Assembly (NCBI RefSeq): GCF_041146795.1
Contig: NC_135177.1
Span: 7,852,560-7,916,559, forward strand
Length of the DNA stretch: 64,000 nucleotides
Direction: 5' to 3'
From: Maylandia zebra
Lineage: Eukaryota > Chordata > Actinopteri > Cichliformes > Cichlidae
Positions 7,091 to 55,080 of the stretch are shown piece after piece (within the stretch, counting starts at the first letter, position 1; every line of letters starts with the position of its first letter). The notes beneath the pieces were generated by a model. It was not told the origin of the DNA. It ran no database searches and saw only the letters and a program-made list of their open reading frames with translations. The translations under genes and the position numbers were made by a program.

Positions 7091-36868
<29,778 letters not shown>

Positions 36869-44059: not shown

Positions 44060-45644
<1,585 letters not shown>

Positions 45645-47308: not shown

Positions 47309-50300
47309 CTAAGCTGGGACCGACAGTGCAGCCTCTGTTTGGCAGGAATTGAGGAAGTACGGGACCAGGGAGAAGTTCTTAAGCATAGCCTCGTTGGTAA
47401 CACCAGTGTCCTGCATCTCAAACCTGGTGAATGAAAATAAACAGGAATCAAGGACCATAACCTCCACATTCTTGCACAGAAAAGATTTTCTCCATCACTG
47501 CCAAACTTACCAGTCTCTAGAGGAGATGACGTAGTACACAGGGGGTGGTGGTGAGTCAGTGGGGGAGCACAGTGGTTGACCCAGACTGTAGGAGCCAGCA
47601 TGTGTGAACATGAGCCAATCTCCAATGTTGAGCTCAGGTAAAAGACAGTGCTCCAGTACCTGGTCCAGATCATCTCCAGAGGGACCCCACAAGCTGCTGC
47701 TGAACACCGGTACATCCAGGGAAGTGTTCTGCTAATAAGGCAATAATTATTTTAGTCATTTTACAATGTGTATATGTGTGGGCAGTAGCTGATTAAGATG
47801 TTGTTCCTAATTTAATAATATAGTCCGTATACACATTGAGAAGTATAGAGAAAGTATTGTGTGTTGTGGTTACACATTCAACTGGCCCTTTGTTAGGTAA
47901 AGGTCCTTTGTTGGCTGGCTGGATGGATGCGTCCGTCTCGCTATCCATCCATCCAACAGAGGACCTTTGTGGTGGAACAGATTTGCATTATGAATTTGCA
48001 GCCAACAGATCTACAGAAACTGCTTGCTGCGATCTTGTCAGTGTGACCCAAAAAGTCTTGCACAAGTTTCAAGCACCTTGTTAAATCTATGCAACAGTTT
48101 TGTAGATAAAAGTAGTCCAACCTGGTACTGCCAAAGTGTACCTATTAAAGTGTCTAGTAAGTGTATACTGATCCATTGAGAATCTTTGAGACTCACCTTG
48201 TGAACAGATGGGGCAGATATCAGTCCTTCAGAGAGTTTGCTGGCAAACGATCCATACACTCCTTCGTTCATAGTGTACTGGAACGCTGGCTCTTCATTGG
48301 GAGACAGATCTGTTCAGAAGAGGGCAGAAAAGTTTCTGAATTACATTTTACTGTTTGATTCATAGCTGCACTGCTAATTCCCAGTATAATAATACATTTC
48401 ATGCTGTACAACACTGGTTTCTGCATGAAAATGCATTGTGTACTGCTCGAGTTACAGCTGGAATGCAGTTTTTACAGAGTATGTCCTTAACAATCATTAC
48501 CGTTCCTAAGTGAGTATCTTGCCACTAACCATGATCCTGGTCCTGGGGATCACGTGCCACCACCTCCTTGGAGATGACATTGACAGCTAGTGTGAAAGCA
48601 GAGGACACGAAGAAGTTACCAGGCTCAGCAATGATGGAAACTCCTGAAGATGGAGGGAAGTATAGGTCCACCATAGACATGACTGCACTATTAATCTGCA
48701 AAAGAGATGACAGAAGCCGTTACAATTAACATTAAGACATTCCTTCCTTTTCCCCCCACATGCCTCTGAAAAGTAGTTTAAATCCAGCTTCACAGTGAGC
48801 AGCTAAAGCATGAATCTATATTAGAATATTCTCAACATTTAAGACAGACACTTTTATCTTACTGTTCAGCTAGTGCTTACTACAGCTACAATGTACAAAG
48901 CTTGTCTTTAGCACCCATATGGAAAAGAAATAGTAAAAAGATATTTGATTTACTCATGAAAGTGGCCACTTTCTCATTACTTTCATATATTTTTTTAGTA
49001 AGTATACAAAACATACAAGTTTCATTATATAATTTTTCAAGGGATCTTATACACTCAACAAAAATATAAACGCAACACCTTTGTTACTGCTCCCATTCCC
49101 CATGGGATGGACGTAGAGACCTAAAATTCATTCCAGATACACAATATAACCATCCCTCCCAAACAGTGGTCACAAATCAGTCCAAATGTGTGGTAGTGGG
49201 CACATCTGCTATATTGAGATAATCCATCCCACCTCACAGGTATGCCACATCAGGATGCTGATCTGACATCATGAGTAGTGCACAGGTGTACCTCAGACTG
49301 CCCACAACAAAAGGCCACCCTGGAATGTGCAGTTTTGTCTCACAGCAAAATGCCACAGATGCCACAAGCAATGAGGGAGCGTGCAATTGGCATGCTGACA
49401 GCAGGAATGTCAACCAGATCTGTCGCCCGTGCATTGAATGTTCATTTCTCAACCATAAGCCGTCTCCACAGGCGTTTCAGAGAATATGGCAGCACATCCA
49501 ACCGGCCTCACAACCGCAGACCTCGTGTAACCACACCAGCCCAGGACCTCCACATCCAGCAGGTTCACCTCCAAGATCGTCTGAGACCAGCCACCCAGAC
49601 AGCTGCTGGAACAATTGGTTTGCACAACCAAACAATTTCTGCACAAACTGTCAGAAACTCAGGGACGCTCAACTGCATGCCCGTCGTCCTCATCGGGGTC
49701 TTGACCTGACTCCAGCTCGTCGCCGTAACAGACTTGTGTGGGCAAATGCTCACATTCGATGGCGTCTGGCACGTTGGAGAGGTGTGCGCTTCACGGATGA
49801 ATCATGGTTCACATTGTTCAGGGCAGATGGCAGCTGAGAATGTCCCAGTTCTTGCATGGCCAGCATACTCACCGGACATGTCACCCATTGAGCATGTTCG
49901 GGATGTGCTTGACCGGCGTATACGACAGCGTGTACCAGTTCCCACGAATATCCAACAACCTCGCACAGCCATTGAAGTGGAGTGGACCAACATTCCACAG
50001 GCCACAATTGACAATCTGATAGACTCCATGCGACGATGTGTTGCACTGCATGAGGCAAATGGTGGTCACACCAGATACTGACCGGTTCTGGGTCCCCAGA
50101 CCCCCAATAGCGCAAAAAACTGCACATTCCAGGGTGGCCTTTTGTTGTGGGCAGTCTGAGGTACACCTGTGCACTACTCATGATGTCAGATCAGCATCCT
50201 GCTGTGGCACACCTGTGAGGTGGGATGGATTATCTCAATATAGCAGATGTGCCCACTACCACACATTTGGACTGATTTGTGACCACTGTTTGGGAGGGAT

Positions 50301-52735
50301 GGTTATATTGTGTATCTGGAATGAATTTTAGGTCTCTACGTCCATCCCATGGGGAATGGGAGCAGTAACAAAGGTGTTGCGTTTATATTTTTGTTGAGTG
50401 TATGTGTTTTCATTCTTGTATGCTTTTCATACAAGTCAGATAAAAACTTTATAAGATTTATATATATCTTTTCCATATGGGCAGTATCTGATAGAAATGC
50501 ACTGACCAGTTCCAGTTGGGCCTCAGAGCCACTGAATCCGCCTCCAATGTCCAAGATTTTCATGCTGAAGCCAATTTCCTCCTGAAGCAGACAGAAAATT
50601 GTTAATAACTTGGGTCTATACAAAGTACCTTGTGTTTATGGAGCATCCAAAACATAAAATTGTATTCAACAGAAATGCAAATAACAGTCATAGAGCTGAC
50701 TGCAAATAAAATGCATCATTTAACACCACATACCCCCATATCAAAGACACAACGGGCATCGGAGATGGCATGAACATACACCTGGTCATCGTCACAGGAG
50801 TTGGAAATGTGAGACCTGAGGAGTAGAAGAGGTAGTCGGTGATCAAACTGGCAACTTAACGTTTAAATTTCATTTGCAGACAAACTGACTAAATAATTTG
50901 TTCAGGAGAACTGTGCCATCCTTGCAGTGGTCTAAGTACAAAACCTGGATTTGCATTTCTCTTCATGTCCTTCCTGTAGTCCTTACCTGACCCCAGCTAC
51001 CTGCACACCCAGCTCCTTAGCACTCTCCAGCAGATGTCTGCAGTCCTTGAGTGAGCAGCCAAATGTCATGCTCATGTCATCGTCCGGGTTTGACGCTTCC
51101 GTTGACACCTGTAGCAGCAGCCTAAATTATCACAGAGGAAATAGATAACTTGGTTACTGTTTTGGGGAAACAATCGATCCAGATTAATCTATGATATAAA
51201 ACCAGAGCAGTAAACTACACAGAACCAAACAGTTTTGCAGGTAGATTTCTTATCAGAATGACGGTCGATAGTGTAACCAACAGATAATTACTATGGACTG
51301 ATAACATGGTCAGTTGTTTAACATATTCACTGGCACTTGGACTGATGCTTATCAAAAACTTACTTGGCATTGGGGTGGCAGCGAGAAATCTTGCGCAGCT
51401 CTGCTTCATTATCACACACCAGGAGGTCAATGCCATTTTTAGCAGCATATTTAATCTGGGAAACTTGTTTGCAAACACCACTGTAGATGATATCTTCAGA
51501 GGGAATACCATGGCTCTGCACCAATTCCAGTTCAGACTGAATTACAAAGATACACAGACAAAGCAATATTCCATTAAAGGGAACCTATTATGCTTTTTTG
51601 TCATCTTTTGCTTATATTACACTTAGTTTGAAAATTTCAGTGTATGTACAAAGAACTGTGAGCTAGAAGGTCAGTCTCTAAGCAGTTTTTTTCTACTCTT
51701 CATAGGATATCCTTTAAATGATCATCTCAGGATCATTGCTCTGGCTGTAAGCATAGAAATCTAATCCACCTGCTGTCCCAACCTTCCATTTGTAAGGGGT
51801 AGGGAGCCAATCCTTTGTCAATCCATTGCCAGACGGCGGCTTAACAGTGGGGCCGCACCAAAGCCAAATATAAGATAAATAAGGATTATTTTCAACTTTG
51901 AATCAGCCAAAGCTGCTCTAGAAGAAAGAAAATAGAATTTGAAATAAGTGTAATAGATCTCCTGTATCTATCTTGCAATGCCCATCAGGCAGATGCATTA
52001 GAGACAAATATTTATTAAATAATGTTTACAAGGTGGGCATTGACATGTGGTGACCACTTGGTGGTGCTTTTAAAAATATTTAAAGATCTTGGAAAGACAC
52101 ACATTAAATAGCCTTGGGGTGAATTCGTACCAGGGCCTCAGCCTTATGAAACACGGGTCAGCTTGATGATCAACACTAGTGCTAAATGTGCTTTTATATT
52201 TAGCAGAGAAAAGCCCTAATGACAAAAACACACACTGTCAAAGAGTACCTTGTTGGTGCATATGAACCCAGTGCCAAGGGAAGCAAGGACTTCAATCACA
52301 GCTGGGCTGCTATTGCACCTGACAGCATAGTATGGTCTGATCTGGGACATGTGGGTCCGCCAGCGAACATGCTGCCTCATTATGACTCCCAGATCTGCTA
52401 CAAAGAATGCATTTTTCTCAGACTGGAGAAGAGGGAAACAAACAGGTGTGGAAGAGTCAGAAAACACATTAAGATTGTATATCCATTAATCTACAATACA
52501 AGCATAAACAAAAGTGTGCCTGTATGTCAATTAACAACCTTTAGTTAACAATGCATTATAATACAATTGTTGGTTTTGAGACAATATTAAAACATTAAGA
52601 AATAGTACATATTATTAAAGATGAAGCCCATACCAGTGTTTGCTCATAAATGTGATTGTCAATAACATCACAGAGGGCCATGCCTCCTTCCAGCAGGTCA
52701 ACAGAATACTGCGGTTCATCAGCGATTCCTTTCAT
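47309..52735 (-). CDS. azin1: Antizyme inhibitor 1
   Basis: This is a homologue of ornithine decarboxylase (ODC) that binds antizyme, releasing ODC and raising polyamine levels. The coding exons are 52634-52735, 52249-52422, 51364-51536, 50987-51121, 50734-50815, 50507-50581, 48530-48695, 48197-48309, 47511-47728 and 47309-47423. They total 1353 nt or 450 aa (human 448), all in phase. The start gives [15 protein letters not shown]. The ODC-like barrel motifs remain ([34 protein letters not shown]), as does the C-terminal [14 protein letters not shown]. The ODC cofactor lysine position is Arg69 (YYAVRCNSS) and the catalytic Cys360 position is Gly, so it is predicted to be enzymatically dead. 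A Tc1 element lies in the intron 48696-50506. Teleosts can have two azin1 copies; which one this is cannot be told here. Confidence 0.95.
47900..47968. repeat. Imperfect hairpin with GGAT repeats in azin1 intron
   Basis: AAAGGTCCTTTGTTGG near 47899 pairs with CCAACAGAGGACCTTT ending near 47968. GGATGGAT and ATCCATCCATCC lie inside the arms. It resembles a foldback formed by two opposed GGAT-tailed repeat ends. Confidence 0.6.
49052..50400 (+). mobile_element. Tc1/mariner element with about 285-bp inverted repeats
   Basis: The termini are CACTCAACAAAAATATAAAC and its complement, bounded by TA at 49050-49051 and 50401-50402. The inverted repeats are near-identical over about 285 bp (49052-49335 and about 50117-50400), an unusually long arm. 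The interior encodes a Tc1-type transposase on the plus strand. The HTH region ([20 protein letters not shown], then [13 protein letters not shown]) starts near 49353. The first catalytic Asp motif is FTDESWF, and after a deletion come [14 protein letters not shown] and a normal C-terminus. A frameshift near 49640-49700 and loss of the segment with the second Asp make it non-autonomous. It lies in an azin1 intron, opposite to that gene's strand. Confidence 0.92.
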
Positions 52736-52844
52736 CCTCTCAACCGTTTTCTTCAAATCCAACAGGCATAAAGAATGTGGCTAGTGCGAAGTGGTCTTGC
52801 TCGCTCCCTCTCGAGCCCCTGGGGTCCTAGACTTATGCAACAAA
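52634..52844 (-). other. azin1: azin1 exon with start codon and proximal 5' UTR
   Basis: A strong acceptor (TTCCTTGTACAG on the minus strand, just above 52844) begins this exon, which carries about 109 nt of leader before the ATG at 52733-52735. The leader end, GGTTGAGAGG, directly precedes ATGAAAGG. Confidence 0.65.
52740..52769 (-). CDS. AUG-initiated 9-codon upstream ORF in azin1
   Basis: An ATG at 52767-52769 opens MPVGFEENG and ends at TGA 52740-52742, only 4 nt before the main azin1 ATG. The frame differs from the main ORF. Such a short, close uORF would limit initiation at the main start or require reinitiation or leaky scanning. Whether it is translated is unknown. Confidence 0.5.
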   Translation of the reverse strand: MPVGFEENG

Positions 52845-53897: not shown

Positions 53898-54019
53898 ATG
53901 GATGAGTCCTGGGATGAACTCCTCCACTATCAGCTAGGATCCCAAGGTGGCTCGGCGTTGAAGTCAAATGGCTCTCGGTATAGAGCTGCCCCTAGATCCT
54001 CTGGGTAGTTGTTGTACAC
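53898..54019 (-). other. azin1: azin1 5' UTR exon 2
   Basis: The donor is GTGAGT (the minus-strand reading below 53898) and the acceptor CCTTTGCAG lies above 54019. The exon holds the conserved C-terminal part of the upstream ORF and 32 nt after its stop. Confidence 0.75.
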
Positions 54020-54914
54020 CTGCAAAGGGGCAGATGAGGACGTGAGGCACAGCAGATTCAGTCAATGATCAGTCAATTGTTTCCCCTGCTAACACATGTT
54101 CCAGTGGTACTCCAAAGTACAATCAAATCTGTAAATCTGTAGAGGAAACTGGGTTTTTTCCTGGCTCCAAATGGATCTTTGGGTTATGACTACACACATT
54201 AGCACGATAATCCAGAATAGAAAGGCATTCCCTGATTTCCATATTTTTCGCCATTTGACAAAGACGAATTGTAAGCTCGAGTTAACGAATACCCGCATAA
54301 AGCACTGATACAGAAAACAGTATTTACATGCTGTACTTAATATGTGTTTTTTAAGGTGGTTTTTAATGTGTGAATTGTTAGTCTGAGTTACTCTGAACCA
54401 ACCACCGGAACTGATGCAATGATGGCCAGATTAGCAGGTTTGAATAAATTAATTAGCAATGGCTACAACAACACTCTTGCCCCGTGTTATTTATCATGCT
54501 GCCCCTTATAACCACGTTTAACTACAACTTAACATTCATTACCAATTACTTCAGAGTCAAATTTCTTGTTACTGTAACAGCTTGCTTTCAATTCATGGAG
54601 CACATTAGCATTAGTGTCCGCGGTAGTTACACAGTAATATACGATGTATTCCTTACACAGTAATATACGATGGATTCCTAGTACCAACATGTTTTATAAA
54701 AACAAAGTTTTTTTTTTAAGAATGCTACTGACAACAACGTTATAGCTAGTGTGTTTTATTTAGTATTTAGCTAGACAATGACACGTTACTCAGTGCATTT
54801 AGCTAATAACATGCTAACACTCATAGGAAGCTAACAGCGCGGTTAGCTAACGTTACTTACGTCCGCTGAAAACCCAAAAGAGGGGACAGAACGCTTTTTC
54901 TTTTTAGGCGGAAT
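53930..54914 (-). CDS. azin1 upstream conserved coding region (non-AUG uORF, PPW stall motif)
   Basis: Two 5'-UTR exons join into one frame: 54861-54914 (18 codons from a candidate ATT start at 54912-54914) and 53930-54019 (30 codons to TGA at 53930-53932). The join uses donor GTAAGT and acceptor CTTTGCAG, in phase 0. The peptide begins PPKKKKRSVPSFGFSADV, continues YNNYPEDLGAALYREPFDFN and ends AEPPWDPS. There is no AUG in the open region, which is bounded upstream by an in-frame TAG. ATT is the only strong near-cognate codon. Known biology: AZIN1 mRNAs carry a conserved non-AUG uORF whose Pro-Pro-Trp motif stalls ribosomes when polyamines are high, repressing the main ORF. The PPW here is at 53942-53950. 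The start codon choice is inference. Confidence 0.8.
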
Positions 54915-55080
54915 TTTTAAAGAGTGGTGGGGAGACTAGAAGAGAAAACGATATTTGCCATGGAGTAGTTCAAGTTATTGTCGTTCGACGTTTTCTCGAT
55001 GGCACCTATAGCGGACCATTTGTTACAACCGAGCAGACGACAGCAGCGGAGGGCGAACGGCAAGACCGACCCACAGACAG
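54861..55080 (-). promoter_or_regulatory. azin1: azin1 exon 1 and promoter zone
   Basis: Exon 1 ends at the donor after 54861 (GTAAGT). GC-richer sequence around 55020-55090 (CGGAGGGCGAACGG, ACAACCGAGCAG) suggests the start of transcription, but no TATA box or initiator can be fixed. An ATG occurs near 54960 with an in-frame stop soon after. Confidence 0.45.

Follow-up and report, generated by a model that had tools for sequence, protein, structure and literature searches.

Leader structure and predicted splicing

Every vertebrate antizyme inhibitor mRNA available in 2008 was found to contain an AUG-less uORF, the uCC, which is some 50 codons long and has a conserved AUU (Ivanov 2008, as cited in PMC4458265). 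The question raised by the present locus is whether two short exons upstream of an azin1 gene encode this element, and whether its polyamine response would be retained. The sequence analysed, referred to below as the window, is the whole 64 kb stretch of DNA from a probable fish.

Joining position 54861 to 54019 on the minus strand yields a single open frame, which reads F, stop, SPHHSLK and then IPPKKKKRSVPSFGFSADVYNNYPEDLGAALYREPFDFNAEPPWDPS followed by two stops. The peptide IPPKKKKRSVPSFGFSADVYNNYPEDLGAALYREPFDFNAEPPWDPS has 47 residues and a C-terminal end PPW-DPS-stop. It spans from ATT (54914-54912) to TGA (53932-53930), with a TAG directly after the TGA and another in-frame TAG eight codons before the ATT. 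All three frames of the spliced sequence are free of ATG between 54938 and the 3' end of exon 2. The original prediction had described a 47-residue frame without AUG, built from two leader exons, bounded by TAG and TGA and carrying PPW near its stop; this description was confirmed, and its coordinates proved correct to the base. The features of the model are listed below.

54861 to 54914, minus strand: uORF (uCC) part 1 in leader exon 1, 18 codons from ATT, IPPKKKKRSVPSFGFSAD
53930 to 54019, minus strand: uORF (uCC) part 2 in leader exon 2, 29 codons plus TGA, VYNNYPEDLGAALYREPFDFNAEPPWDPS and stop
53942 to 53950, minus strand: codons for Pro-Pro-Trp, the motif at which ribosomes stall in the mammalian element (PMC9082881 and PMC8705083); three codons lie between Trp and the stop
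53930 to 53938, minus strand: Pro-Ser-stop, with which the uORF closes; Pro-Ser is also the end of the human peptide as printed
54936 to 54938, minus strand: in-frame TAG 5' of the ATT
54017 to 54019, minus strand: GTG, a second plausible in-frame near-cognate and first codon of exon 2; as an alternative start it would give a 29-codon uORF
54020 to 54860, minus strand: leader intron 1, 841 bases, GTAAGT...CAG, with 17 ATG; predicted from consensus and homology
53898 to 54019, minus strand: leader exon 2, 122 bases; 3' end predicted from the GTGAGT donor
52733 to 52844, minus strand: exon 3 from its first base through the main azin1 ATG (52735-52733); acceptor predicted from sequence

Between 55100 and 53800 the minus strand holds two GTRAGT sites only (the minus strand of the entire window has 44), and these are the two donors of the model, GGAC/GTAAGT for exon 1 (54860) and CCAT/GTGAGT for exon 2 (53897). 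The exon 2 acceptor, at the 3' end of intron 1, is TCTGCCCCTTTGCAG/G before 54019, and exon 3 begins at 52844 after TTTTCTCTTTTCCTTGTACAG. We infer the splicing of 54861 to 54019 from the sequence and from homology. In the spliced model, 141 nt separate the uORF stop from the main ATG at 52735, so the stop would precede the main AUG. An N-terminal extension of azin1 was rejected, as the frame is closed by TGA and TAG within exon 2.

Identity of the main gene

For the main protein, the query against PDB comprised 150 residues assembled by eye across three downstream exons. Antizyme inhibitor 1 scored highest (4zgz, 198 bits; 3btn, 197 bits), compared to 152 bits for the best ODC, and ODC was rejected as the main ORF on these scores. 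A later exon gave 74 bits for antizyme inhibitor 1 versus 55 for ODC. The assignment to azin1 in the original prediction is supported by both comparisons. The entry 4zgz, listed as antizyme inhibitor 1, is one which we take to be the human protein.

Orthology with the human AZIN1 uORF

The only peptide of another species used for comparison was the human one, as printed in a supporting-figure legend of PMC9648851. In a tblastn search of the 64 kb window, its top match was the exon-2 part (54022-53933, E 2.3e-13, 53.9 bits), while the best of 500 shuffled queries reached 26.9 bits. Human residues 1-14 aligned from exactly 54914 in exon 1 (57%, E 0.11), a match that is not significant alone and is slightly outscored by an unrelated place at 9711 (E 0.056). 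Both parts of the uORF were matched in order and on one strand. Aligned globally over the whole length, the two peptides score 153, whereas 2000 shuffles average −20 (sd 10) and reach at most 23; 32 of the 47 residues are identical when counted by hand.

Identity to human in the exon-2 peptide was 23/29 with one gap. The better tblastn match starts with a Gln whose CAG codon is intronic in the model, and this residue was left out of the 23/29. In the human uORF a Gln precedes VYN; its counterpart here is this last CAG of intron 1 (54020-54022, minus strand), a hint that the position of the acceptor may differ by one codon or more between the two species.

Over the final 12 residues, FDFNAEPPWDPS, D in place of E is the sole difference from human; the PPW and the terminal Pro-Ser are retained, as is the place of the start. 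The middle differs in length, with 13 residues here versus 19 in human. For comparison, the start of the main protein has 89 of 149 aligned residues identical to 4zgz, and the best of its 121 windows of 29 residues has 22 identical versus the 23/29 of the exon-2 uORF peptide. By this count, the uORF tail seems to be conserved as well as the best stretch of the compared start of the main protein.

Two accounts that deny a functional element were weighed against these data. According to the first, the frame is a random open one that contains PPW by chance. Among 1407 stop-to-stop segments of at least 29 codons in the whole window, one had PPW near its end, namely this uORF; 60 first-order random resamplings averaged 0.35 such segments per window, with never more than 2. 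PPW alone was therefore rejected as evidence, being within chance. The frame is nevertheless far above chance because of its match to the printed human peptide, which lies 5' of the azin1 coding exons, and that match (E 2.3e-13) leads us to reject a chance origin, whose probability we regard as practically nil. According to the second, the frame is a relic kept by ancestry and absent from the mature mRNA, for instance if the main promoter lies downstream. The frame is wholly open across 47 codons, both donors fit GTRAGT, exons 1 and 2 are free of ATG after 54938 and the frame ends are kept relative to human, all of which make a relic very improbable.

We conclude, with a probability of about 0.95, that the uORF represents this probable fish's orthologue of the vertebrate AZIN1 uCC. 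It is thus an already known element, a well-preserved copy of the published vertebrate AZIN1 uCC, and not a new one. In the literature searched, which excludes most subscription papers, no study dealing specifically with a fish copy was found. Pfam contained no family for the uORF peptide. Pattern searches of animal-free collections returned 109 stretches from genome contigs and 14 from viral contigs, none of which was confirmed, and an animal-free plasmid collection gave no match to exon 2, the only part used as the query there.

Comparison with known polyamine-responsive uORFs

The element resembles the vertebrate AZIN1 uCC (Ivanov 2008, 2018) in its place in the azin1 leader, the AUU position, the IPPKK start, the predicted stop before the main AUG and the tail VY-NYPE-LG--LYRE-FDFNAEPPW-PS. 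It differs from the human uCC in having 47 codons instead of 52, a shorter and diverged middle, and Asp for Glu before the final Pro-Ser.

The yeast HOL1 uORF (MLLLPS, then stop) shares the Pro-Ser-stop end and is dependent on polyamine and eIF5A, according to PMC11550727 and PMC10855120; unlike the present element, it has six codons, starts with AUG, belongs to a transporter gene and is without PPW. An AZIN1 'PS* uORF' is already named in PMC10855120. The AMD1 uORF (MAGDIS) is similar in that a ribosome pause on the leader peptide responds to polyamine (PMC8162569), but it has an AUG start, six codons and an unrelated peptide.

Start codon

Four near-cognate codons lie in frame: ATT at 54914, AAG, AAG and GTG at 54019. 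The ATT has A at −3 and C at +4, and the in-frame GTG has G at −3. One strong near-cognate start had been predicted; this did not hold on either count, as the +4 base of the ATT is C and the GTG is a second plausible start. The +4 base is C both in human and here because the second residue is Pro in both and every Pro codon starts with C. The weakness of the start codon thus appears to be kept between human and this species. In PMC9082881, non-AUG initiation is described as critically dependent on a G at +4.

It is conceivable that the conserved uORF begins mainly at GTG (54019) or another near-cognate instead of ATT, so that the 29-codon peptide of exon 2 would be the working unit with any first exon. 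This reading draws on the GTG being the first codon of exon 2, in frame and with G at −3, on the Val present at the same position in human (from the printed peptide, which does not give the human codon), on the concentration of human-versus-here conservation in exon 2, and on the C at +4 of the ATT. However, IPPKK from the ATT onward is identical in human and this species, PPKK was obtained just after the start in 251 of 200,000 shuffles of the exon-1 residues, and mutation of AUU to UUU in mouse essentially abolished the response (PMC4458265). We therefore consider a main start other than ATT quite unlikely.

Proposed mechanism

Reporter assays in mouse showed a 6.5-fold repression of the main ORF in spermidine-fed versus polyamine-depleted cells; this repression was essentially lost with the AUU to UUU change, and also on alteration of the ten final sense codons (PMC4458265). 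Ribosomes are reported to stall at PPW at high polyamine, with eIF5A as the sensor and queuing that increases AUU initiation (PMC9082881, PMC11058473 and PMC8705083). The background given with the original prediction, namely a non-AUG uORF, a PPW stall and queuing, agrees with these sources and with PMC4458265.

By analogy with mammals, most scanning ribosomes would bypass the weak AUU at low polyamine, and azin1 would be translated. At high polyamine, the few ribosomes on the uORF would stall at PPW with eIF5A hindered; the stall would produce a queue back to the AUU, AUU use would increase and azin1 would be repressed. With less azin1, antizyme would be freed and ODC destroyed. The sequence features needed for stalling, queuing and a polyamine response are present here, and we consider it quite probable that the switch works in this organism. 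The element clearly exemplifies how a metabolite can regulate its own synthesis through an effect on the ribosome.

The ATT and PPW are 41 codons apart here versus 46 in human, which means that ribosome spacing is not fixed; measured from the start to the P-site proline of PPW, the interval is 126 nt here compared to 141 nt for the human uORF. It follows that the queue would need no exact number of ribosomes, or would fit by means of compressible scanning subunits. Human and this species share the two ends and the site of the start but not the spacing, which constrains how exactly a ribosome queue must fit. The distance of about 30 codons between AUU and PPW given in PMC9082881 disagrees with the human peptide as printed, where codon 47 is the first of PPW.

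A further, rather doubtful possibility is that the uORF is bracketed by eIF5A-dependent sites, Pro-Pro-Lys after the start and Pro-Pro-Trp with Pro-Ser-stop at the end. The PPK at the start and the PPW and PS-stop at the end are common to human and this species, and the middle has drifted in length and sequence. The uORF would begin Met-Pro-Pro-Lys if the AUU is decoded as Met. Under this reading, ribosomes at high polyamine would be slowed both at the end and at the AUU itself. If this were true, pausing at the start site would contribute to the switch directly and independently of any queue, and would explain the free change of start-to-PPW spacing (126 versus 141 nt).

Splicing variants and leader context

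Skipping of exon 2 in the model gives IPPKKKKRSVPSFGFSADFVA followed by a stop, and retention of intron 1 gives IPPKKKKRSVPSFGFSADVSNVS followed by a stop; PPW is lost in both cases, and retention brings in 17 ATGs. Either event would be a reasonable off-switch for the uORF. Polyamine-dependent splicing, as well as alternative splicing and transcription starts, has been reported for mouse Azin1 (PMC4458265 and PMC6313458).

Two AUG uORFs were observed on the minus strand of the leader region. The first, MANIVFSSSLPTTL followed by a stop (54961-54917), has its stop two bases 5' of the uCC ATT; if transcription starts upstream, it would compete with the uCC or feed it by reinitiation. The second, MPVGFEENG followed by a stop (52769-52740), lies in exon 3 and ends four bases before the main azin1 ATG. 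Its context is poor, with T at −3 and C at +4.

Folding of the leader, calculated with no shuffle control, gave −10 kcal/mol for 50-nt segments whose first base lies 9 to 18 nt 3' of the A in the ATT, and −96 kcal/mol for a 312-nt stretch. G-runs are present in the leader, and a G2-quadruplex has been described for human AZIN1 (PMC6067879).

Other features of the azin1 locus

At 52335 on the minus strand, the protein has Arg where the PDB AZIN1 chains have Lys (PYYAVRC versus PFYTVKC); this position is presumably that of the cofactor lysine of ODC. At 47695 on the minus strand, Gly replaces Cys in the WGPSGDD of this azin1, and the Ser codon before this Gly is TCT. We take this Ser to be the site of the human AZIN1 Ser-to-Gly A-to-I edit; since the codon is TCT, a human-type edit is not possible at this codon.

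A Tc1-like element is located at 49049-50403, between azin1 coding exons. Its 288-base inverted arms are 99.3% alike, and this near-identity suggests a recent insertion. An ORF piece of the element (49275-49709) scored above the cut-off for HTH_23 and below it for the Sleeping Beauty HTH model. A C2H2 zinc-finger gene (44397-45644, plus strand) lies tail to tail with azin1. It has what we assume to be a KLF10/11 look, and in the human gene order KLF10 presumably stands beside AZIN1.
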